Source: Erodium maritimum | Lineage: Eukaryota > Streptophyta > Magnoliopsida > Geraniales > Geraniaceae | Length of the DNA: 64,000 nucleotides | NCBI GenBank assembly: GCA_963921825.1 | Contig: OY997589.1 | Location: 77,360,523 to 77,424,522, forward strand | Direction: 5' to 3' | Shown here: positions 21,509-43,828 of the stretch, piece after piece | Layout: every line of letters starts with the position of its first letter | Position numbering within the stretch: the stretch's first letter is position 1 | Notes under the pieces: model-generated | Told to the model about the DNA's origin: nothing | What the model saw: the letters and a program-made list of their open reading frames with translations, nothing else | The model's database searches: none | Made by a program: the position numbers and the translations under genes

Positions 21509-21514
<6 letters not shown>
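21139..21514 (+). mobile_element. TA-targeted inverted-repeat element, family C copy 2, about 376 bp
   Basis: The left end AGGATAACAATCAGGTAC is identical to the inward-read right end of the neighbouring family A element. The right end reads inward GGGTAGCTATCCAGTAAAAA. Inside both ends comes CTTATTGTGCAAACTACGAA; the centre has inverted GTGCTAATAGTTT / AAACTATTAGCAC blocks. A C17 tract lies at about 21161. (TA)n lies on both sides. Confidence 0.75.

Positions 21515-21542
<28 letters not shown>
21515..21542. repeat. (TA)n tract at the left edge of the giant element
   Basis: About 13 TA units between family C copy 2 and the giant Mutator-like element. Confidence 0.9.
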
Positions 21543-21620
21543 GGAGAGCAATCAGGTGCGAACCACCTGATTTGGTGCGAACCTGCGCACTGCGTGATGG
21601 CCGTCCGATCTGGATCTCGC
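21541..21620 (+). repeat. left terminal inverted repeat of the giant element
   Basis: GGAGAGCAATCAGGTGCGAA then CCACCTGATTTGGTGCGAAC. Pairs with 43660-43738, imperfectly (roughly 70-80% by eye). Confidence 0.7.
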
Positions 21621-22051
21621 GATGGCGCTGATTTGAACGCGTCATCAGTGGCACGCGTCGTAAATAAGTCACGCGTGGGATTCTTTTTAACTGATTTGCT
21701 ATGGTTCAAGGGTATAAACGTAATTTTATCTAGCCGTTCGCGCAGAAACGTTTCGTGCTCTCCAAAAGACTTGCAGAATCGAGTTTTTAGCGAAACGAAC
21801 ATTTCGGAAACTGATCTTTTGAGCTTCCATTGCGTTGATTTTCGTCTCCTGTGTGATTTCAAAGTTAATTTCATTAGTTCATTGTTGAACTCTGGGTTTA
21901 ATCGGTGAGTTATAATCTTTGGTGTTTAGGGTTTTGATTCAATCTTTTTCGTTTGGTTATTTAGCTTATTTGATTATAGTAATCCGCCTGTAGAGAATGA
22001 AGAAGAAGGTTGCTGAATCTACAACATTCTGCAACAGGGACACCGAATCAG

Positions 22052-22625
22052 GTAATTTGAGAATATAGTGTTTGTAGTTTGCGGATTTTTTACAGTTGCT
22101 ATGTTTTCAGAGTGTTTGTGTTACGCTTTTAGAGTACAACATTTCAATTCATATATGAAATTATTCAATTATGAGATGTTTTTCCTCTACTTTTGAGGAA
22201 ACCCAAGTTGTTGGTTGAGGTTATGGGTTTTCTGTTTTGCGAATATATAGTATCTTGTTTGCGGGCACTGCTTTGCTGTTTTGCGAATAGTCAATCCTTG
22301 GTTTGAGAAGCTGGTTTTTCCTTGTTTTAGAATATGCAATATGTTTGTTGAGGTTAAGGATTATATGTTTTGTGGATATACGCACCCTGGTTTGAGAAAT
22401 AATTTTTCCCTCTTTGAGATATGCAATATCTGAGTGTGAGGTTATTGATTCACTGTTTGCGAATATGATGTATGTATTTTGCGGGTAATGAATATCTGTT
22501 TTGCGTATATACGTACCCTGGTTTGAGGAATAGTTCCCCCTGTTTGAGAATTCTCAATATCATCTTTGATGTTTTTGTATATTGTCTGATTTGCTGATAT
22601 GCAAACTCTTGTTTGCGAATTATAG
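22052..22625 (+). other. intron 1 of the ULP1-like gene, built from element-specific repeats
   Basis: The intron has GT-AG ends in phase: joining GAATCAG to ATAAAACTC keeps the frame. It carries many TTTGCGAATA / TTTGAGAATA motifs. A stretch of about 250 bp (22200-22470) recurs at about 29310-29600 and 30480-30780. Confidence 0.6.
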
Positions 22626-22735
22626 ATAAAACTCTGGATACAGTGCGTCCTTTACTTTTAATGGATAGACCATCCACAGAGGCTGATGTTGGTGAAGGAA
22701 ATGTGACTCTTGCTAATATGTTGAAGAAGCAGAAG

Positions 22736-25505
22736 TGTCACGCCCCAATTTCAGTAAACCGAACTCGGGACGCGAACATTTAAAATATAATTCTGTGAAA
22801 CCTGTTTTGAATAAATACTTTGAAATTGCCATTTAGTTATCAAAAATAATATTTACAAAACAAAAACGTCCCAACAAAAGGACAAGGTACAAGTATCTGT
22901 CACTAGACTCAAAATATAAAGACCGGACTCCGCTCCTAGCTCCCCAAGCCTCAAGAGCTCACCTAGTCCGTCCGGTGATCAGTACCTGTAGGAAAAGTAG
23001 CTAGGAGTGAGTGTTCGCTCACCACCACGGATAACAGACTGACTATGGCATAATTAGTAGATAAAGCCAGTAACACCAAAACCAAACCCAACACCGGGAC
23101 TACAATCCCCAACTCAAGTACTCAACTAACCCACAACCCGTTACCTTCCACAACAGACTCAACCTGAAACTCATAATGTAAAACTGACACAACCATTTAT
23201 GACCTCCTCCAAAGACACGAACACGGATCAGGCTAGCCAAAGAATGCTCACAACCTGCCGAGACTCGAACACGGATCAGGCCAGCCAAAGAATGCTCGTA
23301 ACCTGCCGAGACCCGGTCACGGATCAGGCTAGCCAAAGAATGCTCATAACCTTTCGAGATCCGGACACGGAACAGGCTAGCCAAAGAATGCTCATAACCT
23401 GTCGAGACTCGAATTTGGTCAGGCCAGCCAAAGAATGCTCGTAACTTGCCAAAATCCACACCACTCCCCGACACGAAGTCGGGTTACTAACCCCAGGCAA
23501 ACACAATCACAATCACAAGCAAAGCTCAACAAACAGTAACAAGACCAGTTCAACACTCCATAGGCACTCATGGCCACTCAAGACTCCAACGGTAAGGACT
23601 CGGGTTCAACAACCCCACAGGCCCTCATGGCCTCCCAAGACACACCAACTGTAACTCACGGGCTCAACGACCCCACAGGCACTCATGGCCTCCCAAGACA
23701 TCCCAACAGTAAAACACGGGCTCTCAAGGCCACCCAAGACACCAACAACAATACACGGGCTCTCATGACCACCCAAGACACCAACAACAATACACGGGCT
23801 CTCATGGCTACCCAAGACATAAATTAAACAGTCAACCTCCGGGCATGGTCATATGCCTCCAGTAATTCTAATATCGCTAAGTTCTCTGTTCCTACGACAC
23901 TACTAAGTGTCACATGCTTTTCTCAAAAACGCTACGTTCCCGTATCATGCTTTCCTAATATTCGATAACCTACTTAACCCACGACACCCCGGTGTCACAT
24001 GCGATTCTACTTTTAACTTTCCCTAATTAGGGCCGAGATCCGGCTACTTTTCCCTACCTCGTATATAACTCCAAAAGTGCTCCACTTACCCTCGACGTGA
24101 TCCCAATCACTCGCCCAGCTTCCCCTTGCCTCGGTCCGCAGCACGATCTAAAAGAACACAATTTTTAATGCACTTTAAACTCGCAGGAAATAAACCGGAA
24201 ATTAACAAACTTAACGCCCAAACGCAACCCCAGCAACGCCGATCACTCCCAAACTTCCCAATTACTCGACATTGTCGATAAAGGACCCGTAAAGGCCCGA
24301 TTCTCCCGACATGACGAATCTGCCCGGGTTTTGTAAATGCCCTTCCGGGGCTCCAAAAATTCCCGTTTTCGTTTCTACGGTCTTAGAATAATTCAAGGAT
24401 CCCAATGCACTTGACGGAATCGAATTCCGAGTCAATTAATCAACGTTTAAAGTTTCTAAAACCCAAATTTCCAATTTAAATCCAAATTTCGATTCGGTTA
24501 AGGATAAATGGTCCGGGGAACGTTTGAAACCACCCGAACACTAAACCCGAGCACCCGAGCACGTGGGCCCCACCCGGCCCACTTGGCCGTGGGACCTAGG
24601 GTTCCAAGTGGGGCTCGGCCACCATGGTGGTGGCTGGTCCCAGCTCCGGCCAGCCACCCCATGGCCGGCCGGCCACCACCCACGGTGGCCGGAGCTCCTC
24701 CCGAGCTTCCGGTCACCGGAAAACGTGCAATCTCACCTCCCAACACCTCCAAAACGTCTCTAACAAACCCCCAACCTCACTACAACCCTAACTCATCATT
24801 TTTAACCAAACCCTAACATGTGAAAATTATCAAATCAACGATCGGTTTGGTTGTTACCAAAGAGGAAGACGAGGGGAAGTCAATTCCTCCTAGCCTTGAG
24901 ATGATCCGATGGATGGATGACGTGAATAGTGACCAAACCCTACTCCAAGCTCTCTTCTTCTCCTTTTCCTTCTCTTTCTAACTTCTCTCTTCTTTTTCCT
25001 TTTTTTTTTCTCTTTTGATTTGAGTTGGCCGAACCCCCCCCTATATCTCTCTTCTTATTTTCCCCCCAAAACTAACACCACCACTTGTTTGACAAGTGGC
25101 AAGGTGGGTCCCACACCTTTTGGAAAATATTAACTAGATAATTTCCAATCAGATTCGCGAAAATCGGACGTTTCGGGACCCGAACAGGCACTTTTTCCCA
25201 AAAATTACGAAACTTGACGGGCCACAAGGAAACGGCTCAACTAAGACCGCTGCGATGACGACTAAGCTTTTTGGATCCAAAACGGTCCTCGAATGGACCA
25301 AAACGTCTCTCGGTTGACTTTTCCCAAATTGATCAGAAAGTTGTCCTGAGTCCCCCGGAACTCATTTTGGTCGAAATCGGGGTCATCTTAAGTCTGGTAA
25401 GACCCTCAGGGTCAAATTAGGTTAAGTTAAGTGTCTGTCTTAAAATTTTTAAATTTTCCTGTTTTTCGCAGGTTTGACTGGCGTTGACCGGAAGTGGTTA
25501 TTACA
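22736..25505 (+). mobile_element. solo LTR, family L1 copy 1, 2770 bp, TSD AGAAG
   Basis: It begins TGTCACGCCCC and ends GTGGTTATTACA, with TG...CA termini and a perfect 5-bp duplication AGAAG (22731-22735 and 25506-25510). A second copy is at 33410-36198. No internal retrotransposon domain is present, so both are solo LTRs, left after recombination between two LTRs. The length and TGTCACGCCCC start suggest a Gypsy element, possibly chromovirus-like; lineage not proven. It interrupts the ULP1-like coding frame: removing it joins LKKQK to SIMNEDKRR. Confidence 0.92.
23200..23450 (+). repeat. tandem repeats inside the solo LTR
   Basis: About four units of 60 bp, each with CACGGATCAGGCTAGCCAAA and GAATGCTCATAACCTGCCGA. 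A second array (about 23570-23825) has units of 40-50 bp containing CTCATGGCCWCCCAAGACA. Both recur in copy 2 (33895-34130 and 34210-34450). Confidence 0.85.
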
Positions 25506-26727
25506 AGAAGTCTATTATGAATGAAGATAAAAGAAGAGTTTCAAATAAAAAGAAGAAGGTAGCTGAGGTTCGTGAATCTCTTGATGGAGGAAGTTCTGAT
25601 GTAGCTGTCCCACCTGCTAAAGCCGGAAAGAAGAGAGGTGGAGAATTAGCTGTTGAGAAAGAGAATGTTAAGCGCACCAAGTGTTATAAATCTGATAGAG
25701 TTGTTCCGATATCTGATAAGTTTGGCGTGGTTGATGGTTTGAAGACCAGGTCATCTCCAAAGAGATTAGTTGAGTTGGTACAGAGTTTGAACAAACACCA
25801 ATAAGAAGTAGTGCGGGAAATTGGGTTTGGGCACATTCTTCATTTTGCTGTGCAGATCATTCCAAGCAGGATTGGATACTACCTGGTGTCTAAGTATAAC
25901 CACCTTAGCTCATCATTGGTTTTTCCAGATGCGAAATTGCGTATCACAGAAAAGGAAGTGCATGAAACTTTGGGCATTCCAAATGGTGTGCAAGACGTCA
26001 TAGTCGATAAGTGGGGGCCCTGTCCACTGATGAACTTAAATTGTGGCAGCGGCAGTTCAATACAAAAGACAAAGGCGAGATCAAGCATCTTATCACCAGT
26101 AAGCACTTGGTTGATCAGATGAAGACGCAAATTGAAGGGGGGAGATGATTTCAAAAGAAACTTCATGATGTTGTTTGTCACTTGCATGATCGATTCCGGG
26201 AATTATGGTTATGTGAATCAGTCATGCTTCCTATCCATTGTTGATGTATCCCGCATACAAGACTTTAATTGGTGCAAGTTTTTAGTCAAGAGACTTGTGG
26301 ATACAAAACAAACCTGGTCAAATCAACCCGACGGTTCAAAGAATTTTTCTGGACCAATCACTTTCTTGTTGGTAAGTTTGTTTTTCATTTTAACGTGTTG
26401 CATTTATATTTAATAAACTGTTATGTTATAGTCATGTGACATGTCTTTTTCTTTGAATGATGCAGTTGTTTTATCTTGATCGTGTTGAAGTTAGCACGTG
26501 TGAGGTTCCTAGGGCGTGGCTCGCTTTGATTGGATGAGATACCGCATTGGTGAATAGAAGAGTTGGCGATGAAATACAGTGTGATGCATTTGGAATGGGT
26601 CACATACGAAGGGAGGGTCCTCCACGGGTTAGGGAGGAAGAGAATGTTGGTCAGCATCCACCCCTAACGTAAATAGAGATAATGAAAGGGGTGATAGAAA
26701 TGGAGGAGATCCACCGGCCCCGAATAC

Positions 26728-26810
26728 CCCCCCCCCCCCCCCGTTTCATAGTGAAAGGGGTTCTGCATAGGTTTTTCCAATTATTTAATTTTTTTTTGGG
26801 GGGGGGGGAT
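26728..26810. repeat. C16 tract and G9 tract in a short interval
   Basis: A run of 16 C at about 26729-26745 and a run of 9 G near 26801-26810, both within the remains of the ULP1-like gene. Such runs are slippage-prone. Confidence 0.85.
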
Positions 26811-26835
26811 TATGTTTTTCAAATATACAGTGAGG

Positions 26836-27395
26836 TTATTGATTGACTTGTTTGCAAATATGCTTTACCTATTTTGTGGATAGTGAATGTATGTTTTGCG
26901 AGAATGCTTTACCTAGTTTGCGGATAGTGAATGCATGTTTTGCGATTATGCTTTACCTAATTTGCGGATAGTGAATGTATGTTTTGCGAGAGTGCGCACT
27001 CTGGTTTAAGAAACAGTTTTGAGTATATCCTGCATGTGATATGTGCGTAAGTTTATTGTATGCAAATATGCACATTTTGGTTTGCAGATGTGTTTTGTAG
27101 TTGATGCATACCCTGTTATTGGTTGACTTGTTTGCTAATATATTTTACCTAGTTTGCGGATAGTGACTATATGTTTTGCGAATATGCTTTACCTAGTTTG
27201 CGGATAGTGAATGTATGTTTTGCGAGTATGCTTTACCTAGTTTGCGGATAGTGATTCTATGTTTTGCGAGTATGCGCACTCTGGTTTGAGAAACAGTTTT
27301 GAGTATATCCTGCATGTGATATGTGTGTAGGTTTATTGTATGCAAATATGCACATTTTGGTTTGCAGATGTGTTTTGTAATTGATGCATATCCTG
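26836..27395 (+). repeat. tandem duplication, period about 280 bp, in an intron of the ULP1-like gene
   Basis: 27000-27116 and 27279-27395 match almost base for base (GTTTTGAGTATATCCTGCAT, GCAAATATGCACATTTTGGT). The parts before them are runs of ATGCTTTACCTAGTTTGCGG and TAGTGAATGTATGTTTTGCG in units of about 57 bp. Confidence 0.85.
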
Positions 27396-30300
27396 TGTTT
27401 TATTTGTTTGCATTTACTCTCATTAACATGCTTCTTTTTATCGTATTTAAAGGATTGCAGAAAAGTTTCGATTAGCGGGGACTAAGGTTGCAGAAGGTTT
27501 TATGGAATGACATCAGTTGTTGGTTGAAGGGCATATCGTCGATCCCAATGCTGAGTGTTTCAAGGCAATGTCAACCCTGTTTGATGGTTTGACTGGGAAT
27601 AAAAACCCGAAGATGTCATTCCAGATACACAAGGTGTGTTGCTGTCACAAGACTCATGGTTTAATCTACCCGGGGTTATCGAGACCATTGAGAAATTGAT
27701 TGAAGCAGCAACACGTGTTGGGGAAGGGTACAAAGGAGCAGAGAAGCCACCTGCTCGTGCTGTTACTCCACCAACATTCAGACTTCTTTCACCATCCCAA
27801 AAATCATCTGCGAATGTTCTTTCACCATGCCCTGCTGGATCCACTACATTGTCAAGCCCTGAATGTGATAATGTGGTTCGGAAATTGTTCGCAAGTAATG
27901 ATGTAACCCTTGTGGATAATATGGTTGCAGAACAAACTGAGCCAGGAAAGAATAACTGTGTTGGCAATGAGTTTAACGCTATTTCTGTTGCTTATGGTAT
28001 TGGGAAGGAAGCTTGTGACATGGTTGATGATCATCCAATCGCGGACGTGAAGCTTCCGATGTTGTTAACAAATATGATTGTTTGGCTCTTGCAGTGCAAT
28101 CAGATCCACTTACTATAGAAGGCAGTCAAGGAAATGTCAACGGGTCTGCATCTGTCAATGACTTTTATCAGACACTTCAAGTGCAACCCGAGCCACTCAA
28201 TATAATTATTATCGAACAAAATGTCAACAATGATCCACCTGTTAATCAAGGATCCAAGACTCAATCCCCGCCACTTGTTACTAGACGGGTTTAGCGAAAT
28301 ATCAATTGTGCTATTGGTGGGAAAGAGGCCCCTAAGGCAGTTGCCGAGCATCCTGAACTTACAATGGCAAGATTTTGTGAATTCATAGTCCAACGCCCTA
28401 CTGTCATATCTGTTCCTGCTAAAAAACGCCTCGTGCATCCTCCTAAGAAGTCGACCGATGGTGTTGGTCATGTGGAGTCTGGCTCAGTTATAAATCCACC
28501 AAAGAAGAGAGCTCCCGCTCGTGCACCCGGTAAGAAAGGCCCCGCTGCTGTCCCCGAGAAGAAATTACCCCCTACTGTTGCAGCAAAAAAGCTCAAGGTG
28601 CTGTTAAGAAAAACCCCCCTATTGTTAAGAAACGTGCTGCAAGTGGCAAGAGTTTTACGACAATTGGATGCAGCGAGGCATCTTTATTAAGGGAAACCCC
28701 AGCCAAACAACATTTACCGCGTTCGATTACACCGTCTAAAATTCTATGTTCTCCGTACATTGATCGTCAAACAGATTATTGGTCCGATCTTCTAGAGGTT
28801 GAGGATTGTGTTATTGATTGGGTGCTGAATATAAGAAAAACGATGATTGGTAAGTAAAATATGTTTTTCCCCTTATTTTGTTTTTATATTTTATTTTTGC
28901 AAATACAGTGAATGGGCTTTTCTCTGTGTGAATGCAGTGATTTTATGTTTGAGTGCTCTGAAAATTATATTACCAAGTGGGGCTTTAATTCTTTCAAAAC
29001 CGATGCATGGATTGAATTAGAAACCATTAATGGGTGGTGTCACTATCTGAATAATCTGGAAACGATCAAGAGTGATTCATCACCTAACCGGTTCTTCTTT
29101 GCAGCTTCTCTTAGTGTAAGCATAGTTTGCGCATTTTTTTGGTTGATTACGTTTATTGTTTGAATTATTTTAATATGTTTTTGTTATTTATATGTTTATT
29201 TTGTAGGCTACGCTTTCGGAACATAAAAAAGATGTAGATTTTGACGATGTTTTCAAGATTGAAACTAAGGAGTTCCCTTCTTTTTCATGAAAGAAGTTGG
29301 ACTTGGTAAGTATAATACATGGTTGGTTTTAGAATATGCAATATGTTGGTTGAGGTTAAGGATTGTATGTTTTGCGGATATACGCACCCTAGTTTCCGAA
29401 ATAACGTTTACCTGTTTGAGATATGCAATATCTGGGTTGAGGTTATGGATTGTCTTGTTTGCGAATATGCTGTATTTAGTTTGCAGATAATGAATATATG
29501 TTTTACGGATATGGGCACCCTGGTTTGAGAAACATTTTCCCCAGGTTTGCTAATAATGAATATCTAGTTTGCGGATAATGAATATCTGTTTTGTTGATAT
29601 AGTAGTGAATGTTTGTATTATATAAACCAATTTATACATTATATTAATATGCTGATGTATTTTATATATTGTTCACAGGTTTTCATGGTTGTTTTTAAGA
29701 GAAATCACTACACAATCTTATGCATCGACATGAAGAAGGGAAATTGAGATATTATTGACAATGTCAAAGGAATGGTTGATGACGATATTCGTTATGGAGG
29801 TATTCACTATAGATTGGTACGTATTCTTGTTCATTGACTATGTGTGTGATTACTGTCTATCTATTGATTTCTGTTTTTACTTATTTTTCTTTGGTGTTTT
29901 TTTGTTGCGTAGAGGTCTAAAATTTGCAAGGTCATAACAAAAACTGATAAAGGTGTAGCTCAGAAAATTTACAATGGTAAGCTTGATCGTCTCCATGTAC
30001 CATGGGAATCTAACGACAATCATATGGATTGTGGGGTGTATGCTATGTGGCACATGGAATCGTATCTTGGAAATGGAAATTGGGCAGGTGAATTGGCCAT
30101 TAATGATGTAAGTTAAACCAACAATTATTTCTTTGTCAGTATATAACAATGAGTATAGATTTGATCTTTAAATTTTGGTTTTGTAGGCTTCACAAATGGA
30201 ATTATTGAGGAAAAGATTCCTCTTTAAGTTGGTCACATTTGAGAAGAACAGCCCGTGAAGAGAAATTGAGGAGAATATTAGAGATTATTTCAAGAAGAAG

Positions 30301-31163
30301 AAGATCACATTCGAATTTAGTGTCAAGTATAGAGCCTTATTACCATGCGAACGTCATAAAGCTTAGTGAATTACTCTTTTTGATTATTGATATTGGTTTT
30401 TAGAAACGACAATTTTGGTTTGAGAATATATGATATCTTGTTTGAGAATACTCTGTGTACTGTTTTGAGAATTTGTAAGATCTTTTGTTTGCGAATATGC
30501 TGTATTTTAAGATAAACAAGTTGTTGGTTGAGGTTATGTGTTACTGTTTTGCGAATATATAATATCTAGTTTGCGGGTACTGTTTTTCTGTTTTGCGAAT
30601 AGTCAGTCCTTGGTTTGAGAAACGGGTTTTCATTGTTTCAGAGTATGCAATATGTTGGTTGAGGTTCAGGATTGTATGTTTTGCAGATATACGCACCCTG
30701 GTTTGCAAAATAACTTTTACCTATTTTGAGATATGCAATATCTGGATTGAGGTTTTGGATTGTCTTGTATGAAGAATACATTGTAGTTCTGTTTGATTTT
30801 ACCAATGATAAGATATGCCTTAATATGTTAGTTATTTCAGTAATATATTTTTTTAGAATAATCATGTTCTGGTTTACGAATATAACCATACGTCTTTGAG
30901 AATACAGAACATGTTAGTTATTTCAGTAATTTTTGTTTTGCGAATAATCATGTTCTTGTTTGCGAAATTAACAATACATCTTTGAGATTACAGAACATTT
31001 CGTTTGCGAATTTAATATAGATTACTTTCACAGTAGAACAGGCAGATACAAGTCATCCATTCATTGAAAAAACAAGTTTTCAAAAGACAAAACAAAAACA
31101 TCAAAAGACGATTGACATGATAACAGGGAAATTTAACTACATCCATCATGAGTTGGATGTCCC

Positions 31164-31493
31164 TTAGTCCTCTGCTATCTCCATGGTTTTGAAGAAGTCC
31201 TGAATCTCTTTAAGTGTCCCCATCATCTTGTCCATATCTTCCTTGTGCTTTTCAGTCGAGTTGCTCATGTCAAGCACTTCCAGTTCATTGGCAAGGCTTA
31301 CCACATTCTCCTCCATCAGTAAAAAGTGGATTTGGATTAGTCCCAACCTTAATTTGCGATACTCCATTGCAGTTTCCATAGCGGCTTCCTGTATCTCACG
31401 CATCCTGTTATGACGTTCCTCACTGCTACGCTCCATAGCTTCTTGTGTGCACACGTTACCTTCCGCTCTGGTGCGTTTCCTGTTGGGAGCCAT
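31164..31493 (-). CDS. small coiled-coil protein 1 of the giant element (109 aa)
   Basis: An intact frame with an N-terminal basic cluster (PNRKRTR, possible nuclear signal) and a helical, coiled-coil-like body. The block YRKLRLGLIQIH ... VVSLANELEVLDMSN matches LRHLKLSIIKSH ... VVNLMAELEEEDISN in the protein at 41144-41383, so the two are related. I do not recognise the family outside this window. A TATA-like sequence (CTATAAATACCCCC on the minus strand) lies about 85 bp above the start. It is divergent from the acidic gene at 32012, 520 bp away. Function unknown; a DNA- or protein-binding accessory for transposition is only a guess. Confidence 0.65.
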   Translation of the reverse strand: MAPNRKRTRAEGNVCTQEAMERSSEERHNRMREIQEAAMETAMEYRKLRLGLIQIHFLLMEENVVSLANELEVLDMSNSTEKHKEDMDKMMGTLKEIQDFFKTMEIAED

Positions 31494-32011
31494 CGCTTTT
31501 GCAGACCTGGTGGTTTGAAGTTATTTGAGAAGAGAATTTGAAATTGAAGGAGAGTTGGAGGGTTAAGTAGTATATGATGGGGGTATTTATAGTTGAAATC
31601 TTGCGGTGGCATTATCGTTATTTTATTTAAAATAGAGTTCTAATTATAGATAGATTAGTTAACTAATAAAGATTCCGCAAAACATATATCTTATTTTCGC
31701 AATCCATAACTCATAATTCTCAAAGTAAATGCTGATTTACGTGTATCGGCATGTGATACGATAAGATCATGTAGTTGACACGTGTCAATCGTTACCAAAA
31801 TCCGACGCTATGATCTAATCGATATGATTTCAAAATCTGACGGTTAAGTTTTCACGGTTCTATTTCATCATTACTAAAATCCCCCTCGAATGCACAAAGA
31901 TCTTATCGCATTTAATGTGTTGGTAAGTCTTTTCACCGTCGTTTGGTTTAGCTTAAATTAATCTTTACCCCTACAAATCATGTCAGCATAGAGCTTTTTT
32001 TCAATTAAGTC
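31494..32011. promoter_or_regulatory. divergent intergenic region between coiled-coil gene 1 and acidic gene 1
   Basis: It holds a TATA-like box for the minus-strand gene, a G-box-like GACACGTGTCAA (about 31779-31790) and inverted copies of the element motif (TTCCGCAAAACATAT, TTTTCGCAATCC). The matching region at 41384-41988 has the same gene order and also contains ACACGTGTCAAGC. Confidence 0.5.
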
Positions 32012-32118
32012 ATGTCACCATATAGAAAGTACTGTAGTAGCGGTGAGAAAGAGGTAACTTCAAAGAGACGAAGGCTGATTTCACATGGTGATGAAGAGGA
32101 TTGCCCTATTATCATCAG

Positions 32119-32163
<45 letters not shown>

Positions 32164-32332
32164 GAAAGAGGAGGAGAAAGAAAATGGGGCGGAAGAAGAT
32201 GATGAGGAAGACGAAGAAGAAGATTATGGTTATAATGGTGATGTTGAAGAGGATGATGAAGAAGAAGATGATGATGACGAAGAAGAAGATGATGATGACG
32301 AAGAAGAAGACTCGGAGAATGAAGATTGGTGA
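32012..32332 (+). CDS. acidic low-complexity protein 1 with SKRRRL motif (106 aa)
   Basis: An intact frame: short N-terminus, SKRRRLISHGDEED, then a run of 14 or more Asp encoded by (GAT)n and a Glu/Asp-rich tail ending ENEDW. The SKRRRL motif before an acidic tract also occurs in the frame at 41989-42586, so this is a duplicated gene and not just a microsatellite. SKRRRL could be a nuclear signal. Acidic tails of this sort occur in histone-binding proteins; nothing here proves that role. It stands head to head with the coiled-coil gene at 31164-31493. Confidence 0.55.
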
Positions 32333-32829
32333 ATGTAACTTATGCCACAAGTTCTTTCACTTTTAGGAATTAGGACTCTCATTTTGTGAATATAGAACTT
32401 CTTTTTTTGGGTATACAAATATGGACTTGTAGTTTGCTGATACAGAGATCCTGGTTTGCTTATATTGTTAATTTATTCCTCTTTACTTGTTGTTTGCGGA
32501 TACAGACTTGTAGTTTGCAGATACAGAGATGCTGGTTTGCTTATATTGTAAATTTGTTCCTCTTAACTTGTTGTTTGCGGATACTGTTATTATTTTTCGC
32601 GAATATTATTATGGACTTGTAGTTTGCGGATACAGAGATCCTGGTTTGCGGATACAGAGATCATGGTTTGCTGATACTAATATTCTGTTTCGCGTGTAAC
32701 ACAAATCATGGAATTATATATAACTTGAAAGTGAAATATAAACGATTTTAAGGAAAATGATTTTTTTTAATTACTTTGAACTGGTTAAGAACAGACAAAA
32801 GTAATCAAAGAGACTAGGGTTTGCTACCC

Positions 32830-33147
32830 CTATACCACCATATTCATAGCTTTGTTCACCGCTAAGATCACTTCGGTTATCTTTCTCTCCAGGGATGAGT
32901 TTGCAAGCGCCTCTTCGAAGCTCATCTCAGTGCACATCTCGTCGCCAACATCCATGGCCAAAATTTCAAGCTCAAGCTCGATCTCAGAAAGCTTAGACTT
33001 GATTGCATTGAAGTTCATCACAAACTTCTCGTGCTTGATGAGACGCTTTTGTTTTTTGTCTTTGTTGTTCTGCTCCTTCAGTTTCCTTTCGCGTTCGTCG
33101 AGTTCATCTTCATAGCTTTTACGCTTCCTGCTTGTTGACGACGCCAT
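32830..33147 (-). CDS. small coiled-coil protein 2 of the giant element (105 aa)
   Basis: The frame is open from 33357, but the start MASSTSRKRKSYEDELDERE at 33147 is preferred: it begins with a basic cluster as in protein 1, and TATATATA lies about 65-75 bp upstream. The body is Lys/Glu rich, then helical (IKSKLSEIELELEILAMDVG). Similarity to the other small proteins is weak; spacing, size, strand and promoter are alike. Function unknown. Confidence 0.55.
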   Translation of the reverse strand: MASSTSRKRKSYEDELDERERKLKEQNNKDKKQKRLIKHEKFVMNFNAIKSKLSEIELELEILAMDVGDEMCTEMSFEEALANSSLERKITEVILAVNKAMNMVV

Positions 33148-33409
33148 TTTTTCAGAGTAAAATTGGGTATTCGAAGAGTTGAGGGATGAGTATATAAGGA
33201 TACAGTATTGGGTATATATAGGGGAACATGTAGGGCATCGTGGGTTAGTGGAGCAATTAATTCTCCCCCACGTTTCCACGCTGTCAATATTTGATTGGTC
33301 TACCACAAACCGTTTCAGTTTCCTTTTGTACGCAAAACGAAAGTAGTATATTCTCAAATCATTATATTTTATTTAGTAAACAAAATTTGAAATATTCGCA
33401 AACAATGTA

Positions 33410-36198
33410 TGTCACGCTCCAACTTCAAAGAACCGAACTCGGGACGCGAACATTTAAAAACATAAAAACACTTGCACCTGTTTTGAATAAAAGCTTTGAC
33501 ATTTCCATTTAGTTCTCAAAAATAATAATATTTACAATACAAAAACGTCCCAACAAGTGGACAAGGTACAACATCCGTCACTAGACTCAACAAAATAAAG
33601 ACCAGACTCCGCTCCAAGCTCCATGAACTTCAAGAGCTAAACTAGTCCGTCCAGTGATCAGTACCTGTAGGAAAAGGAGCTAGGGGTGAGCGTTCGCTCA
33701 CCTCCACGGATAACAGACTGACTATGGCAAAATTAGTAGATAAAGCCAGTAACACCAAAACCAAACCAACACCAACAACGGGACTACAGTCCCCAACTCA
33801 AGTACTCAACTGAACCACAACCCGTTACCTTCCACAACAGACTCAACCTCAAACTCGTAAAGTAAAACCGACACAACCAACAATGACCTTCCCCAAAGAC
33901 ACGAACACGGATCAGGCTAGCCTAAGAATGCTCAGAACCTGCCGAGCCTCGTACACGGATCAGGCCAGCCGAAGAATGCTCGTAACCTGCCGAGACCCGG
34001 TCACGGATCATGCTAGCCAAAGAATGCTCATAACCTTTCGGGATCCGGACACAGAACAGGCTAGCCAAAGAATGCTCAGAACCTGTCGAGACTCGAGTTT
34101 GGTCAGGCCAGCCAAAGAATGCTCGTAACTTGCCAAAATCCACACCACTCCCCGACACACAGTCGGGTCACTAACCTCGGGCAAACACAACTACAAACAC
34201 AAGAAAGTTCAACAAAAAGGTACTCAAGGCCACTCAAGACACCTCAACAGTCAAGACTCGGGTTCAACAATCCCACGGGCCATCATGGCCTCCCAAGACA
34301 CAACCACTTAACTCACGGGCTCAACAACCCCAAGACACCAAAAATAACACACGGGCTCTCATGTCCACCCAAACTCAACAATAAATACACGGGCTCTCAA
34401 GGCCACCCAAATTCAACAATAAATACCGGGCTCTCATGGCCACCCAAAACGTAAATTTAAACAGTCAACCTCCGGGCATGGTCATATGCCTCCAGTGATT
34501 CTAATATCGCTAAGTTCTCTGTTCCTACGACACTACTAAGTGTCACATGCTTTTCTCATAACCGCTACAATCCCGTATCATGATTTTCTAATATTTAAAT
34601 AAATCTACTCAACCCACGACACCCCGTGTCACATGCAATTCTACTATTAACTTTCCCTAGTCAGGGCCGAGATCCGGCTACTTTTCCCTACCTCGTAAAT
34701 AACTCCAAGAGCGCTCCAATAAAACTCGATGTAAACCCAGTCACTCGCCGAGCTTCCCTTTGCCTCGGTCTGCAGCACGATCTAAAAGAGGAAAATTTTA
34801 AAGCACTTTTAAACTAGTACGAATAAACCGAAAATCAATGAACTTAACGCCCAAACGTAACCCCGACAATGTCGATCACTCCCAATTACTCGACATTGTC
34901 GATAAAGGACCCGTAAAGGCCCAATTCGCCCGACATGGCGAATCTGCCCGGTTTTTATAAATTGCCTTCCGGGGCTCCAAAAGTTCCCGTTTTCGTTTCT
35001 ACGGTCTTCGAATAATTCAAGGAACCCATCGCACTTGACGGAATCGAATTCCGACTTCTAAGTCAAATTATTAACGTTTAAAGTTTCTAAAACCCGTTAA
35101 TTGCAACTTCTCCAATTTAATTCCAAATTTCGATTCGATTAAGGATAAATGGTCCGGGGAACGTTTTAAACCACCCGAACATTTAAAACCCGAGCAACCG
35201 AGCACGTGGGCCCCACCCAAACCCCTTGGCCGAGAGCCCTAGGGTTCAAGGGGGGGCTCGGCCACCATGTGGTGGCTGGTACCAGCTCCGACCAGCCACC
35301 CCATGGCCGACCGGTCACCACCCACGGTGGCCGGAGCTCCTCCCGAGCCTCCGGTCACCGGAAAACGTGCCATTACACCTCCAAACACCTCTAAAAAGTC
35401 TCCAACACCTCCCCAACCTCAATACAACCCTAACCCAATCATATTAACGAAACCCTAGCTTTTGAAAAATAAACGAAACGACGATCGGTTTAGTACAAAC
35501 CGTAGAGGAAGACGAGGGGAAGACGGTTTCTTCTTGCCTTGAAACGATCCAAGGGTTGGATCAACTCCACAACCCTAGCTTTAAATTCTTCTCTCTTCTT
35601 CTCTTTCTTCTTCTCTCTCTAACTCTCTTCTTCTCTCTTCTCTTTCTAATTAAATCAACTAACTCATTATTTTTTCTTTTTTTTTTCTTTTTAAACACAC
35701 ATGGCCGGCCACACTCTCCTCCACTCCTTCCCCCCCCCCCAAAACTAACACCACCACAATTAGGACAAGTGTCAAGGTGGGTCCCACACCTTTAGGAAAA
35801 TATCTAGTTGATATTTTCCAATCAGTTTCGCGAAAATCGGACGTTTCGGGCCCCGAACGGGCACTTTTCCCAAGAAATTACGAAACTTGACGGGCTACAA
35901 GGAAACGGATCAACTAAGACCGCTGCGACGACGGCTAAGCTTTTTGGATCCAAAACGGTCCTCGAATGGACCAAAACGTCGCTCGGTTGACTTTTCCAGC
36001 GAAAAGTCAACATTTCCCAAATTGATCAGAAAGTTGCCCTGAGTCCCCTGGAACTCATTTTGATCGATAACGGGGTCATCTTAAGTCCGGTATGACCTTC
36101 GGGGTCAATTCAGGTTAAGTTGAGTGTCTGTCTTAAAATTTTTAAATTTTCCTGTTTTTCGCAGGTTTGACTGACGTTGACCAGAAGTGGTTATTACA
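33410..36198 (+). mobile_element. solo LTR, family L1 copy 2, 2789 bp, TSD ATGTA
   Basis: It begins TGTCACGCTCC and ends GTGGTTATTACA, with a perfect 5-bp duplication ATGTA (33405-33409 and 36199-36203). Sequence matches 22736-25505 along the whole length, with small indels and substitutions, in the same orientation. Long open frames inside both copies (for example proline-rich ones near 35250) are accidental. Confidence 0.92.
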
Positions 36199-36213
36199 AT
36201 GTATTATATTAAA

Positions 36214-36490
36214 TTCATATAAATGAAAACATATGTAGAAATGAAATTTATTAATTCAGAAAACACAAACAACTGTATCCTCAAACCGTTTATATTTATT
36301 CGGAAAACTCATTGTCTATATTCGCAAACAGAAACAACTAAATCCATGTATTATTCATATAAATAAAAACATATGTAGAAATGAAATTTATTAATTCAGA
36401 AAACCCAAACAACTGTATCCTCAAACCGTCTATATTTATTCGCAAAACTTATTGTCTATATTCGGAAACAGAAAAAACTAAATCCGCAAT
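36214..36490. repeat. tandem duplication, period 140 bp
   Basis: Two units starting TTCATATAAATRAAAACATA (36214 and 36354) match nearly throughout and contain the inverted element motif (TATTCGCAAACAG, CCTCAAACCG). It lies directly 3' of the transposase gene. Confidence 0.85.
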
Positions 36491-36507
36491 CTATAATCTA
36501 CATCAGT

Positions 36508-39500
36508 CTACTTCTTCTTCTTCCTATTCTTATTCAGGGGGCAGGTCCTTGTGTCATGATCTTGCATTGTGTGGCATGTCCTGCATAACCGTTTTCGCTT
36601 GTTACTAGCATTGATTGCCTTTTCTTTATTACTGATCATTCTACTCCCAGATCGCAAGCGAGAGCCCTTGGTGTTTGTGATATTTGGTGGCTGGACAGTG
36701 ACTATTTCTGGCAATTTGATCCCTGTCACCGATGCTATGAAACTTGTTCTATTGAGTCTATTCTCATTCACTATGTCATCCACCTTCTTCACTCTGTATC
36801 GATTTAAAGTGTCCAACAATTCTCGAATACTTGAAACCGCTGCATCTTCTGTCCCAATCATTTCAGTAAACCTGGCTTTCACTGCATCCATAACTTCATT
36901 ATCCTTCATACTAGGACCTTCAGGTGGAACACCATTAGAAGACAATGTAGCTGTCAAGTTTGTGTCTTTACACCATCTATGGTTTACCAGTGTCCTGGGA
37001 ATCTTCCTCAATGTTGTGTTTTGCAGCGCAAAGAATATGTGAGAACATATATAGCCCGTTGTTAGAAGCTTGTTGCAATTGCACTCAAAGTTGTTTGTAC
37101 TCATCGTCCAAGTCACCCTGAATTCCTTACCTTCTTGAATAATCGACGAATCCCTGACTTTATAGACAATGGTGTCATCTACGGTGTCATCCATGTCTGG
37201 CAAGCTGCATCGGTTGAGAGCGTAAACTATATGCTTTTGTATGTCAGTAAACACAGTATGTGTGTACACAGTCCAAGCATCTGTTTCAAAACACGTGTTT
37301 GTCTTCAACACCGAATATGAGTTGTAGTTGTGCATCATAAGACTGAAATGCTCATTCCTTTGGTTCTCTATCACCACGCCACACCGCCAGATCAAGTGAA
37401 CAAGGTTTAGGTACTGATCTGTGAGTTGTTGATAGGCCCGGTTGGTTGATTCAAACCTTGATGTTGTTCTCATAAACAACCCCATCGGGAAATCCCTATG
37501 GTATGTTGGGATCCAACTGTGACGCAGATCGAATAAGCCATTGAGCCAAGTGTTGTCCTGCAAATTGAAGTCTTCAATGATGCTAGCCCACTCTTCATCA
37601 AACTCATCATGGCCTATAATGTTGTTGTATACTATGGAATCAAACCTTTTCTCAAAGTCTATATCATTTGTTATACTTCCAGGCACCTGTAACATTTTTT
37701 GTAAGATTTGTAAACTCGAACAAATAAATAATAATAATTGACAATATTGTGGCATATGGATATTTTGTGTTCACAGATTGAGAAAACAGACATAACAGTT
37801 TGAGAATAGATATAAACCCATCGCATAGTAGTTAACTATGAGAACCATATAAGAATAAAACGTTTTGAGTAAACAAGCATTATAAGATGAGAATACATAG
37901 TATATAATTTTCTTATAGAGACTAACCTTAAGACGAATCTTATTCATAATGTGCCACATGCAGAGTTTGTGCTTAGTCTCTGTCATGACTTTAGGTATTG
38001 CAACTTTCATTGCTGGATCTTGATCTGTCACCATATACATTGTTTGCTTCCCATTCATCGCCTTCAGAAAAGCATTAAACATCCAAGTGAAAGACTCGAT
38101 ATCCTCATGTGTTACCAGTCCCAACCCAAAAGTCACAGATTTGTCATAGTTGTCTACTCCTGTAAACGGACAAAATGGCATCGAGTACCTACAAAACATC
38201 AATCGTGAATAAAGAGTAATGTTTACAATTGCTTTTTGAATAAAGTATAGAATACGAGTAATACTTACTGGTTAGTCTTGTAAGTTGTGTCAAAGGAAAC
38301 ATTATCCCCATAAAGCTCGTAATTCTTGATAGTTATTACATCACACCAGAATAACTTAGTCAGGCTTCCGCTTGTGTCAACATCGTACTCATAGTAGAAC
38401 TTGTAGTTGGCTACCTTCTTGTCACGGAACTGGTCAAGGATTATCTGAACATCACTTCCTCCAATATAGACTTTCAAGTCCCTGTGGTAGTTGAAGAAAT
38501 CTTGCTTTCAAGCTCCAACATGGCTGGGGCCTCCGCGTGTTTCACTGATTAGTCTGTGTGCCTTTGAGGGGCCTATTTTCGATCTCTCGCAAAAGTTCAT
38601 ATACTCACCATGGTTGCCTTCCATGTGTCGGTTACCTCGCATCTCATGTCTGTGCTCCGCTCCAACCATAGGGTGGTTATGACCTTCAACAAATTTTGAT
38701 ACTTTGTATCCTAATTCCTCCGAAACAAATGTGAACTTTATCATTGCTTCACAATTAATTCTTGTGAGCAATCTGTTCCTCTTTTTTGTAGTCTTTGAAA
38801 GTTGTGGACTGTTTTGTTCGGGGATCTCACCCTGTTTGGAGCATACCGTGTACTTTAGCTTTATGTTTTTTTTTATCCTTCTTCTCCTTAGACCTTCTTG
38901 TAGTGAATCCAGACAGTCAAGCGTAATTTTGGTAGAAATCTATCGCCTTATTCAGTGTCTTGAATTCCTTTCCTACAAACGGCGTTCGTTCAGGCTGGCA
39001 GGATGGCAAGTATATCCTTGTTCCTCCAGCAGAAAACAGAACAATGTTTTGGAGATCTGATTCTACAGTACAGTCACTGTCTGTGCTTGCAGCTGATATT
39101 CATCGAAATAATGATCAGTTTGAGGATGTAATAATTTCAGATTGCATATACAGCACACATAGAATCGGATAGTTATAATATACTCAGATTGATACACATG
39201 CAGTAGTATATAGTAACAGGCAAAGCAGATTATTTATCCTTTGCGAAAATAAGCAAGTTAGTTTGCGGATACTGCACATCTAGTTTGAGAATGTGTCATG
39301 GAGGAGATTTTATATATTGTTTGAGAAGAAACAAATATTTTATGTTGCTAAATATCGTACAACACAAACTACTGTTTTGAGTACCTAGGCATTCTAGTTT
39401 ACGGATAAAGAAACCACCATGATTATAACGTTTTGGTCAACGGAAAAACAGAATTTGCAGCGATTCTAGAAGAAAATCAATTTTGTTGAATGGATCTATA

Positions 39501-39521
39501 CTTACATATTGTAGATGACAT
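36508..39521 (-). pseudogene. FAR1/MULE-type transposase gene (FAR1 domain, DDE, SWIM, zinc knuckle), broken
   Basis: Proposed minus-strand order: first exon 39521-39506 (ATG, then GTAAGT), a FAR1 DNA-binding part near 39010-38600 (TPFVGKEFKTLNKAIDFYQN, NCEAMIKF, VSKFVEGHNHP), then LTKLFWCDVITIKNYELYGD and SFDTTYKTNQ (first catalytic Asp), an intron 38264-38193, FTGVDNYDKSVTFGLGLV and MVTDQDPAM (second Asp) with KLCMWHI, an intron 37926-37689, and a last exon 37688-36508 with RFESTN (likely catalytic Glu), the SWIM finger CNCNKLLTTGYICSH and the knuckle CRTCHTMQDHDTRTCP. This is the FAR1/Jittery type of MULE transposase, which cuts the ends and reinserts the element. In-frame stops interrupt the FAR1 part and one lies at 38509; the last exon (about 390 residues) is intact. 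Confidence 0.88.
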
Positions 39522-40278
39522 CTCGATTTGTGTAATGGCTAGTTGTGTTAAAATCCGACGATATCAATCAATATATCCTGCGATTTCCGATGATCTCACG
39601 GTGCGATCTCTGGTGCGATCTGAGTTTTTGTTTGGAATCAAGTTTCGAAGAATCGTAGTTTCTTTTAATCTAGTCCTTGATCTCGATTTCTTCGAGAAAA
39701 CTCCGATCTAGGGTTTATATTTGAGAAATCGTAGAGATTTTTTCGAGAAACTTTCTAACTCTGTGTTTGATTCGATTTATGATTTGTTGTTTAGGAACTT
39801 TCCGTTTTTGAATTTGGCGGTTTTATAGAGGAAGTTGGGGTTAATTCGTGCGCTAATCTAGGACCGTCGATAAATTATTCGAAATGGACGAACCTGATTC
39901 AGTTTTGAAAGTTCAATCAAAACAGTTTATTTTATTAGCGAATAGTTTCTTTGCGTATATTTCATATTTAGTTTGCGGATATTTCATATCTAGTTTGCGG
40001 ATAGTTCATATCTAATTTGCGAATACTGTTAGTCATGATACTTTCTAGCAACTGCATGGGCCCTATCATGTTGAGAATACAGACAGCATGGTTTGAGAAA
40101 ATACAACATCTAGTTTGAGAAGACTGAAAGTAAATATTCATAGATAGTTGATACTCCCAAACAAGATGGTGTGTGAAACACCAAACAAAAACATAAAAGA
40201 CGGCATGCATGAAAAACAAGATACCACCAATCTTCTTCTGGATGTGGCTTAGGGATCTACAGTTATATATCCGAGGAA
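39522..40278. other. transposase 5' region and element-specific motif repeats
   Basis: 39522-39720 reads as a leader on the minus strand (ends with ACCCTAGATC-type sequence). 39900-40110 carries three close copies of TTTGCGGATATTTCATATCT and several TTTGAGAATA-type motifs. The 74-codon plus frame at 39490 shows nothing known. Confidence 0.4.
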
Positions 40279-40518
40279 TTATTGATACTCCCTCAATTTC
40301 ACAAGCATGCGTTCTTTCGAAGCTCTTTCTTCTGTGGTCCAAGTAAGGTTTTCGTCCGTTTCCATTTCATCCATGAGCTTGATCACCTTCGTATCCATCA
40401 TCAACATATTGTACTGGATTGTTGTGAATTTAAGCTTCCATATATGGTGGATGGAAGTCAAACGCCTGGCTTCATCCTCTGCATTCATGCGAGCCCATTC
40501 AGCATTCATAGAGGCCAT
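40279..40518 (-). CDS. small coiled-coil protein 3 of the giant element (79 aa)
   Basis: An intact short frame. IWKLKFTTIQYNMLMMDTKV and IKLMDEMETDENLTWTTEER align with the central block of proteins 1 and 4 (hydrophobic heptads, then a Glu/Asp pair and EEH/EER). A TATAAATACTAC sequence lies about 65 bp upstream on the minus strand. Shorter than protein 1 because it lacks the basic N-terminus. Unknown function. Confidence 0.6.
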   Translation of the reverse strand: MASMNAEWARMNAEDEARRLTSIHHIWKLKFTTIQYNMLMMDTKVIKLMDEMETDENLTWTTEERASKERMLVKLREYQ

Positions 40519-41143
40519 TTTTGTTGCTTTTTTTGAGTTGAAGAGTCAAAGATGTGTTCAAGTAGTTACTCAGTAGTAGTATTTATAGCAATGGTCCTAG
40601 GGGGTATTATTGTAATCTTGAACAAAGTAATGGGGTTAGTGGGTAGTTACTTTTCAAGGTCAGAATATCAAGTGTTTTATCCAAGACTGACGATTTGTAT
40701 TTCTTATGTATTAAATTCTCAAACAATTATAAAATTATCCTCAAAACAAAAATCACTGGCTCTTTGCAGTATACAATCGTTTCTTGACACGCGTCACTTC
40801 CAAATCTCACCAGTGTCTGATCAGTATCGTTGGTAAATCTCTCTTGAGCCACACGAAATATTTTCTCAAATATTAAACAAGAACGAATTATGATGTTTGC
40901 GTTTGTGGCTTTACGAGTTTGAGAATACAAGGTATCTTTTTTGCGTAACCATTGTATACATTTTGCAAACTAGGTAGTATAGTGTAATATTTGTGTCAAT
41001 TTTAGTGCATATTTAGTTAAACAAAAAACTTTTCATTGATTAATCTGGAGTCTGAAAGAACAACAAAAATCACGACATCAAACAGAAGAACCAAAAGCCA
41101 ACACAAAAGACATGAAAACAGAAGGGAAAGTACATGCAATCCC

Positions 41144-41383
41144 TTAGGAGCTCTCTTTCACAATGCTTCCAAGTGCAGTCTTATACTTCATGAGTCTCTT
41201 CGTCATGCTTCCCCTGCAAGCCATGTGTTCTTCATCCACGTTGGATATGTCTTCTTCTTCCAATTCAGCCATCAGGTTGACCACCCTCTCATGTGCTATC
41301 ATCAAATGGGACTTGATGATGGACAGCTTCAGATGTCGAAGCTCACGTACGGACCCATGATGTTCTTTCTCTAGAACTTCCAT
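41144..41383 (-). CDS. small coiled-coil protein 4 of the giant element (79 aa)
   Basis: An intact short frame; VVNLMAELEEEDISN and EEHMACRGSMTKRLMKYK correspond to protein 1 (VVSLANELEVLDMSN, EKHKEDMDKMMGTLKE). A TATAAATATACCCCC sequence stands about 90 bp upstream, close to the promoter of protein 1. It is divergent from acidic gene 2 (41989), the same arrangement as protein 1 and acidic gene 1. Family unknown outside this window. Confidence 0.65.
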   Translation of the reverse strand: MEVLEKEHHGSVRELRHLKLSIIKSHLMIAHERVVNLMAELEEEDISNVDEEHMACRGSMTKRLMKYKTALGSIVKESS

Positions 41384-41988
41384 TTTGATTTTTTTGAGGA
41401 TTCCATTTTCATCTATATGATCTAATTATTTAGAAGAGATGTGAGTGTGAATAATTTTTTATCGGTGATAGAGGGGGTATATTTATAGGGGTATTGATAT
41501 AGAGTATGTAGTGGGACACGTGCCAAGCACGCACGTAATGTGATAAAAGCACATTTTTGCAAACAGAATGTCTATTATTCGCAAAACATAATGCTTTTTT
41601 CCGCAAACTAGAAAACCATTTACGTAAAACAGAATGATTATTTCCTCAAACTAGAATTTTGTATTTTTAGAATACTAATTTCCGAAATTCATCATATTGG
41701 AACACGTGTCAAGCATGCAACAAAAGTAAGGTAATCGTGATTTTAATTTTTGATCTGAATACACCCAACCACCCTTTCATTTTTGATCTGACTACAACCC
41801 CCTTTCATTTCGCCCTTTCATTTCAATATCTTCTGTCATCATTACAAAAATCTCTTCGCGCCAAACGAAAAGCTTCCCAAATTAATGGCGTCGTTCCATT
41901 TCCCCAAATTTTCTGATACCCTTTTGATATCTTTATATTGAAACTCAAATCAACTATTTTCTCATCATCCCTATCGTAGTAGGTAGCC

Positions 41989-42586
41989 ATGTCATCATCT
42001 CCCAAGTCTCCATCTATTCTGTATTCTAACAGTGATGGAGACAAATGGCAATCTTTCGAATGCAAGTCTCCACCATCACAAATCTTCAGTAGTGATGATG
42101 ACGACGACGACGTCTGTTCAAAGAGGCGCAGGCTGAATCCCTCCTCCTCCTCCTCCTCTGATGATGATGATGATGATCCTCTCATCAATGAGTATGATAT
42201 TCATCAACCGGGGGGATCCTGATTATGAATCACCGCCGGATGAAGATGAAGATGAAGAGGACAATGAGGAAGAAGATGAAGATGAAGAGGAGAATGAGGA
42301 AGAAGATGAAGAGGATGAAGAAGGAGATGCAGAGTTTGAACCAGAAAAAGAAGAACCTCCAACCGCACCTGCTCCCGTAGAGGACAATGATGAAGACAGT
42401 TGTTATGTTGATGAAGATTGGCTGGATGATGATGAAGAAGATGTCCATGCAGAGGATGAGGAAGAAGAGCAAGAGGGAGAAGAGGAAGAAGAAGACAACT
42501 TATACCCATATGGGGAGGATCCTGAGGAAGGAGTTGTTGAAGATGAAGAAGATTTCTGGGATGACGATGATGATGATGATGCTTAA
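41989..42586 (+). pseudogene. acidic low-complexity protein 2 with SKRRRL motif, one frameshift
   Basis: Frame one (41989-42222) starts MSSSPKSPSI, holds SSDDDDDDVCSKRRRLNPSS and stops after a G6 run at about 42210. The other frame continues through the run to 42586 as a Glu/Asp-rich region with the less biased patches PTAPAPVEDNDEDSCYVDED and YPYGEDPEEGVV. A 1-base slip in the G run would join them, giving about 195 residues, nearly twice acidic protein 1. Function unknown. Confidence 0.5.
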
Positions 42587-42589
42587 TTA

Positions 42590-43659
42590 CTGTAGTTTTT
42601 TAAAAAAAATTGTGGAAAGTAAATATTTAAACATATTAAATCAATCATGTTTAAGTTTATTTTTGGTTTGTGGATACAGTTGTTTTCGTTTGCAAATGCA
42701 AGAACCCCACTTTGCAAATCAAGCAGCCTATACTCATTGACCATCTGTTCAAGCATATTTTCATGGTTTAGTATATAATCATACCATTTTGAAGATACAG
42801 CAAGCAGTGTAATCTGATATCGATATAATTGTTTGCGGATGAATAACAAATCGTTTGCAGATAAGCTAAAGAGGACAAATCCGTTTTTGATTTTTAGTTT
42901 GAAGTCACATGGCATGTTACACGTGCCACGGTGTTGATCTTCACATGGTCCCTAAATATATCCTCATAACATAATTGTTTTATGAGGATACAGTTAATCT
43001 TATTTGCGAATAGAGGAATCCCAGTTTGCGAAAGTTGACAGAATACCAAGCAAAACATTTTCCTTCGTAACATAGGTTGAACAAAAGAGGAGCGTACATA
43101 GGTTGTTTTTTGAGGTTTTATTTTTTATTGTTTGAGAATATAATCATTCCAGTTTGCAAACAATGCAATCTAGACCAAGTAAACCAAAATGAAATCTGTT
43201 TGCGGATATTGATATAACCGTTTGCGGATAAAGAACAAATCGTTTGCAGTTAAAGTAAAGAGGTCAAATGATAGGCAAGGAAAGCAGACATAATTTTTTT
43301 TGATGATACTGTTATTATTTTTTGCATATATAGAAGAATTTGTTTGAGGATCAGAGTGTGGATGTTTTTATTTTATTTGTATTCTTTTCGAAATCAAATA
43401 TTTTTTAAATTTTTTTCCAGTTTAAAATGACAAGCGTTGTGTTTATCAGTTTTTATTTACGACCATTTGGTCTAAATTAAAATCTCAGACGAGCAGGCGT
43501 AGATTGCGGATATTAGAATTCTGTTTTGCGAGAGAATCTGGGTCGCGCGCGTAATTTAAAAGGTTAAATTCCATTTTTTTTCCCTGAGAAGAGGCGTGTG
43601 GCCCCGAATTGGTTCCAATTTGCTCGCTTTCGCGCGCTTAGCTCTGAGCCGTAGATCGC
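42590..43659. other. right subterminal region of the giant element, motif-rich, no gene
   Basis: Copies of GTTTGCGGATA, GTTTGCAGATA, TTTGAGGATA and relatives occur every 40-100 bp. GC-rich sequence with GCGCGC runs appears near 43545-43670, as in the left end (21600-21680). No coding frame is convincing. Confidence 0.5.
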
Positions 43660-43735
43660 GCGCGCTGCTGATAGATGGACGATCCTGATGCAGTTCGCAG
43701 GTTCGCATATTACAAGTGGTTCGCACCTGATAGCG

Positions 43736-43738
<3 letters not shown>
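43660..43738 (-). repeat. right terminal inverted repeat of the giant element
   Basis: Read inward: GACGCTATCAGGTGCGAACC then ACTTGTAATATGCGAACCTG. It lies directly against 44 TA units. Confidence 0.7.

Positions 43739-43826: not shown

Positions 43827-43828
<2 letters not shown>

Follow-up and report, generated by a model that had tools for sequence, protein, structure and literature searches.

Positions 21543-43738 of the window, that is, of the whole 64-kb stretch of Erodium maritimum DNA analysed here, are best read as one Mutator-like element lying between (TA)n tracts, a reading supported within the window. The non-coding DNA of this element is filled with dense arrays of a short motif, which stand mainly in one orientation and keep a 22-bp phase. 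From this anatomy we infer, with about even confidence, a function: the arrays would be the cis component of an anti-silencing system that, like VANC, is sequence-specific.

The shared motif is close to TNGTTTG(C/A)G(G/A)ATA and spans 13 bp. Plus-strand arrays are found in the first intron of the ULP1-like gene described below (22051-22637, 16 sites), in two further introns (26751-27454, 17 sites with a 280-bp tandem pair; 29291-29678, 9 sites), downstream of that gene (30367-31163, 15 sites) and at 32333-32829 (12 sites), 39100-40278 and 42587-43512 (15 sites each, 14 plus and 1 minus). The array at 36199-36507 (6 sites, including a 140-bp tandem pair) is on the minus strand. The strict pattern TTTG(C/A)G(G/A/T)AT occurs 58 times in the element, never in the two solo LTRs nested within it and 3 times elsewhere in the window. 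Fifty-seven of these sites are in non-coding DNA of the element, against a mean of 1.05 and a maximum of 6 in 200 dinucleotide shuffles, although P values based on such counts overstate the case because sites in tandem duplicates are not independent; the 58th becomes intronic when the exon border is set at the splice site. The motif therefore does mark the interval, as the first-pass annotation had noticed.

A weight matrix was trained on the strict sites of the element, with spacing and orientation forming no part of the training. At threshold 7 it finds 121 sites in the 8852 bp of the element that are non-coding, 0 in the 7786 bp that are coding, 1 in 5558 bp of LTR and 15 in 41804 bp outside (136, 5, 4 and 35, respectively, at threshold 5), and the contrast between non-coding and other DNA is present at all six thresholds tried, but it is partly circular because the matrix was trained on sites of the element. 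A k-mer comparison that uses no matrix places the same core at the top of the 7-, 8- and 9-mers (GTTTGCG 30 versus 1; GTTTGCGGA 17 versus 0). The 121 sites are oriented 103 plus to 18 minus. Among plus-strand pairs within 140 bp of each other, 122 of 273 are spaced at exact multiples of 22 bp, where about 12 are expected. Fourteen non-coding intervals are at least 200 bp long; at least one site is present in 13 of them and a 22-bp pair in 11. The non-coding DNA of the element has an observed-to-expected CpG ratio of 1.02, or 0.93 when the motif is masked; the ratio is 0.56 in the coding DNA of the element, 0.93 in the LTRs and 0.80 outside. This pattern fits local protection of the arrays, but codon usage by itself could account for the low ratio in coding DNA.

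The ULP1-like gene (21997-30366, plus strand) is a broken gene of about nine exons with an LTR inside an early exon. It encodes a two-part protein in common with Ipomoea trifida and is colinear with the protein of I. trifida LOC109155623 (P0005), with blastp E values of 8.8e-24 for the N-terminal part and 2.5e-18 for the C-terminal part. With the whole protein as query, no homologue was found at E 0.001 among 7987 candidates; the C-terminal query gave one match among 1357 candidates, which is P0005 (E 3.6e-9). GT and AG dinucleotides are present at the 15 exon borders inspected, either exactly or within a few bases; for the exon that begins at 26466 no donor was located. Six in-frame stops interrupt the supported frame (TAA at 25802; TGA at 26535, 27508, 29288, 29745 and 30256), a further TAG at 28292 lies in a stretch without homologue support, and the frame changes near 26015, 26145, 27600, 28060 and 28590. 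The gene model is uncertain over 26670-28680, a stretch without homologue support.

The name of this gene is likely, not proven. The gene keeps a His...Asp...DCG pattern, which we take to be typical of ULP1 proteases. It gave no Pfam domain match at E up to 10; in particular, neither DUF1985 nor Peptidase_C48 matched the window gene or P0005 at that limit. Sequence searches of the PDB returned no ULP/SENP chain and one unrelated chain at E 0.3. P0005 has Tyr at the presumed catalytic His position and Ser at the presumed catalytic Cys position, and at least one member of this ULP1-like family is therefore probably not an active protease. The multi-exon ULP1-like gene first annotated on the plus strand thus stands, with its ULP1 identity at the strength just given.

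The transposase gene lies on the minus strand (36508-39099, with a provisional 5' end), where a FAR1/MULE-type enzyme had been called, and both domains of that call are recovered (MULE, PF10551, E 1.2e-20; FAR1, PF03101, E 3.6e-10); SWIM-like and CCHC-like motifs were seen by eye. The region 38976-36538 aligns piecewise with FAR1/MULE-type proteins, at 30-56% identity per piece with four homologues, of which P0002 and P0003 cover most of the gene in pieces and P0001 and P0004 cover parts. The MULE domain places the gene among MULE transposases, and a FAR1 N-terminus is tied to the Jittery group in a published group table (PMC6446971). The element thus probably belongs to the Jittery group, an assignment resting on the FAR1 domain and on similarity to the four proteins. 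The gene is disabled by in-frame TGA codons at 38917-38919 and 38508-38510 and by a frame change near 38890. With stops and frame changes in both large genes, the present copy of the element is dead.

Six further small frames, as many as the first-pass annotation had set as a minimum, comprise four on the minus strand and two acidic ones on the plus strand. The first of the minus-strand frames, s1 (31164-31493), encodes a 109-aa small coiled-coil protein with a basic N-terminus, for which two long helices are predicted (mean pLDDT 84, pTM 0.50, from a three-sequence alignment). The 79-aa products of s3 (40279-40518) and s4 (41144-41383) look like paralogues of s1: in each of the three pairs none of 500 shuffles reaches the observed score, and BLASTP aligns s1 with s4 at E 2e-8 and s1 with s3 at E 5e-6. 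BLASTP gave no alignment of s3 with s4, though their alignment score beats all 500 shuffles. The small basic frame s2 (32830-33147, 105 aa) was rejected as a member of this family, since its score is reached by 111 of 500 shuffles in the comparison with s1, by 125 with s3 and by 419 with s4. Six CTATAAATA boxes occur in the window, and three of them stand in the right orientation 69-104 bp before s1 (about 98 bp), s3 (about 69 bp) and s4 (about 104 bp); a CTATATATA box stands 73 bp upstream of s2. By their position these boxes appear promoter-like.

Both acidic plus-strand frames share SKRRRL and D/E-rich tracts. The first (32012-32332) encodes 106 aa, with SKRRRL followed by a D/E-rich tail, and the second (41989-42586) is broken near 42211. 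Each forms a divergent pair with a small gene, the first with s1 and the second with s4, as if one module had been duplicated. Apart from the domains named above, Pfam and NCBIfam returned nothing better than sub-cut-off matches, which we take as chance; examples are PAP2_C (E 0.0016, in an exon-plus-intron frame), DpnII (E 0.0087, in s2) and Rio1 (E 0.0041, in s1). Rfam at the gathering threshold and ARAGORN gave no match in the whole window.

The density and orientation of the motif, its confinement to non-coding DNA, its growth by tandem duplication and its ULP1-like companion match the anatomy of the VANC systems, and we therefore propose that the element carried a system of this kind. The arrays would have been bound by a protein that the element itself encodes, most likely the product of the ULP1-like gene, perhaps together with the small nuclear-looking proteins. 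This protein would have bound cooperatively, in steps of two helical turns, along introns and spacers. Once bound, it would have removed or blocked DNA methylation at the arrays, and this relief would have kept the transposase and the accessory genes expressed. Other sequences would have been left untouched because they are without dense arrays. The present copy would have lost the system by mutation. The likeness to VANC is shown for the anatomy and not as homology, because the window gene and P0005 match neither DUF1985 nor Peptidase_C48 at E up to 10.

The motif might instead be bound by the transposase, or by one of the small accessory proteins, and serve transposition or transcription, an explanation that we think has a modest chance of being right. 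TnpA of Spm/CACTA binds repeated motifs, and its sites in Spm/En are subterminal. In the present element the terminal inverted repeats hold five copies of TGCGAAC, a sequence near the TGCGAA core of the inner motif, which has either TGCGAA or TGCGGA, so that one binder for both is conceivable. Transposase sites would, however, be expected near the ends. Here the motif sets in 0.5 kb from the left end, where the terminal 455 bp are the sole one of the 14 intervals without a site, and stops 0.2 kb short of the right end, while introns and spacers remote from the ends are full of sites.

It is rather improbable that the arrays are a non-functional minisatellite, a 22-bp repeat spread by slippage through AT-rich spacers. 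Several arrays are indeed tandem or dispersed duplicates, and a comparison of seven duplicate pairs within the element shows that the core diverged no slower than the spacer (45 of 418 versus 72 of 769 mismatches, P 0.48), which is also expected of a copy decaying after its death. Against slippage, phase and core recur in 11 of the 14 intervals, while spacers compared across intervals are barely more alike than chance (identity 0.31, with 0.29 expected by composition; 0.36 within intervals). Exons are free of sites at threshold 7, and the orientation is strongly biased. Neutral decay would also have scrambled the cores like the spacers; the cores are not scrambled in this way, though the sites were picked by their core.

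The borders of the element are direct. Its left end at 21543 abuts a (TA)14 tract (21515-21542) and its right end at 43738 a (TA)43 tract (43739-43824); when the 9-11 bp target site duplication of MULEs was looked for, both flanks proved to be (TA)n. The terminal inverted repeats (21543-21611, plus; 43673-43738, minus) carry two copies of TGCGAAC on the left (21557-21576) and three on the right (43693-43719). They are imperfect, with 50 of the first 64 bp identical (78%; blastn E 6e-10), and their local alignment score of 37.5 exceeds the maximum of 25.0 in 200 mononucleotide shuffles. The inverted ends in (TA)n that had been noted at both borders are thus real. Allowing up to 3 mismatches, the 17-bp terminus of the element itself is found at four places in the window (16787, 21148 and 21551, plus; 43715, minus).

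We compared the nine MULE ends that abut TA tracts between 16.7 and 44.1 kb of the window. The left and right ends of the element are each other's best match (score 37.0), with next-best partners at 20.0 for the left end and 22.5 for the right. The short elements alongside find their partners among themselves, A1 matching A2 on both sides and B1 matching B2. It is very improbable that several elements stand here side by side or nested, with left and right ends from different transposons, even though TA-flanked elements form a modular array in this neighbourhood and the element is known from a single copy in the 64-kb window, since each end has its best partner in the other (37.0 against at most 22.5) and the interval is filled with a motif that is rare outside it. 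Within the window, the earlier call of a single element is upheld.

The element is one member of a local array of short TA-flanked elements whose termini are related and read about ATCAGGTRCRAACC. A terminus close to this sequence is recognisable at eight of the nine ends; the ninth (A2 left) is weaker, with only GGGTACAAACC. A1 (20842-21125) and A2 (43824-44100) are short copies about 92% alike, in the same orientation on either side of the large element. The related short elements B1 (16779-17207) and B2 (21138-21514) hold 13 TAGTTTG in about 0.8 kb, compared with 22 in the large element and 6 elsewhere in the window. Same-strand AGTTTG spacings are 22, 209, 135 and 232 in B1 and 132, 110, 87, 22 and 23 in B2; these repeats are possibly a diverged form of the array of the large element. 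At 20023-20543 there is a two-copy 268-bp tandem repeat that contains 22-bp TGATAAAACCAGTGTAAAGTGT units, which has a 22-bp period and is unlike the motif. Two genes named F-box-like by eye (11984-14041 and 50811-52129), on the same strand and 75-87% alike in DNA pieces, flank the array of TA elements at a distance of about 38 kb. Other fragments resemble, by eye, a LINE reverse transcriptase (33-1299), a PIF/Harbinger-type transposase (48420-48893) and a copia polyprotein (56559-60292).

The element had at first been described as far larger than usual, and this claim fails because LTRs inflate the element and the remainder falls within the published range. The two solo LTRs, at 22736-25505 (TG...CA, target duplication AGAAG) and 33410-36198 (TG...CA, target duplication ATGTA), are younger insertions, 2.8 kb each and 5.6 kb together, and are 85-88% alike. 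Without them and one target duplication each, the element measures 16,627 bp (16.6 kb); the sizes given for grapevine MULEs include 14.4 kb for Jitvine-2 and 17.7 kb for Mutavine-1 (PMC2528002).

If the proposal is true, motif-guided anti-silencing is not peculiar to the TIR-less VANDALs but is used by MULE lineages distinct from one another, and the phase of 22 bp suggests that binding along the DNA is cooperative. It would then become possible to test a general rule for how transposons escape methylation, and a second protein-motif pair, independent of the first, would be available for targeted demethylation in plants. More tentatively, and with less than even confidence, we suggest a fuller picture: an anti-silencing system outside the VANDAL lineage, in a TIR-bearing, TA-microsatellite-targeting FAR1-type MULE, with helically phased 22-bp arrays that would be read by its own ULP1-like protein and by private small coiled-coil and acidic nuclear proteins, and with TA-flanked neighbours, whose TAGTTTG repeats stand partly at 22-23 bp, as users of a diverged code.

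Several known systems share parts of this anatomy. In Spm/En, the element-encoded protein TnpA has an action that correlates with DNA demethylation (PMC10398659); that element is of the CACTA superfamily, unlike the one described here. Insertion into (TA)n tracts is shared with AutoMuTAnT, the autonomous member of the Medicago MuTAnT family, which has a Jittery-like transposase (PMC4486113), and with the SaTars of guayule and rice, described as modular clusters of TA-linked MULEs (PMC5907723). The present element likewise adjoins (TA)n and is clustered with other elements in a modular way, and its array resembles the SaTar and MuTAnT clusters (PMC5907723, PMC4486113). Unlike it, AutoMuTAnT is 4.9 kb long with a single ORF and AgS-MULE1 of guayule 5.3 kb (PMC4486113, PMC5907723).

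ULP1 in Jittery-like MULEs is already known: ULP sequences are described in Jittery-like families of grapevine and, from earlier work, of melon (PMC2528002). These elements share with ours the Jittery-type transposase and, in some families, the ULP-like sequence. The Jitvine elements measure 11.9 and 14.4 kb; the table of that paper gives no TIR for them, and its parts on Jitvine make no mention of motif arrays or of a small gene family (PMC2528002). No report of motif arrays in a Jittery-like MULE was found, by title or start of abstract, among the matches in one open-licence library. The first-pass annotation had likened the element to the Kaonashi type, which holds by analogy only, for KI-MULEs are described as non-TIR elements with a mudrA gene (PMC2528002), whereas TIRs and a FAR1-type transposase are found here.

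The closest parallels are VANDAL21 and VANDAL6 of Arabidopsis, with VANC21 and VANC6, and the KIU elements, which share dense one-way short motifs in non-coding DNA, growth by tandem repeats and a gene beside the transposase (PMC5735166, PMC13317346). VANC21 binds short motifs and localises to the introns of VANDAL21 and to its intergenic and terminal non-coding DNA, which hold YAGTATTAY in one orientation at high density; VANC6 recognises other motifs, and the arrays evolve through tandem repetition (PMC5735166). RdDM acts on non-coding regions of these VANDAL elements (PMC10398659). According to a review, VANC genes that carry a ULP1 domain (KIU) act likewise (PMC13317346); the ULP1-like gene of the present element may be a counterpart. 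The element differs from the VANDALs in its motif (YAGTATTAY and AGTTGTCC/AGTTGTAC in VANDALs), in the DUF1985 protein of VANDAL/VANC, to which neither the window gene nor P0005 has a match, and in its 64-bp TIR at 78% identity, where VANDAL TIRs are absent or degenerate. A FAR1-type transposase and insertion into a TA microsatellite likewise set it apart from the VANDALs, with which it has in common dense same-orientation motif arrays in non-coding DNA.
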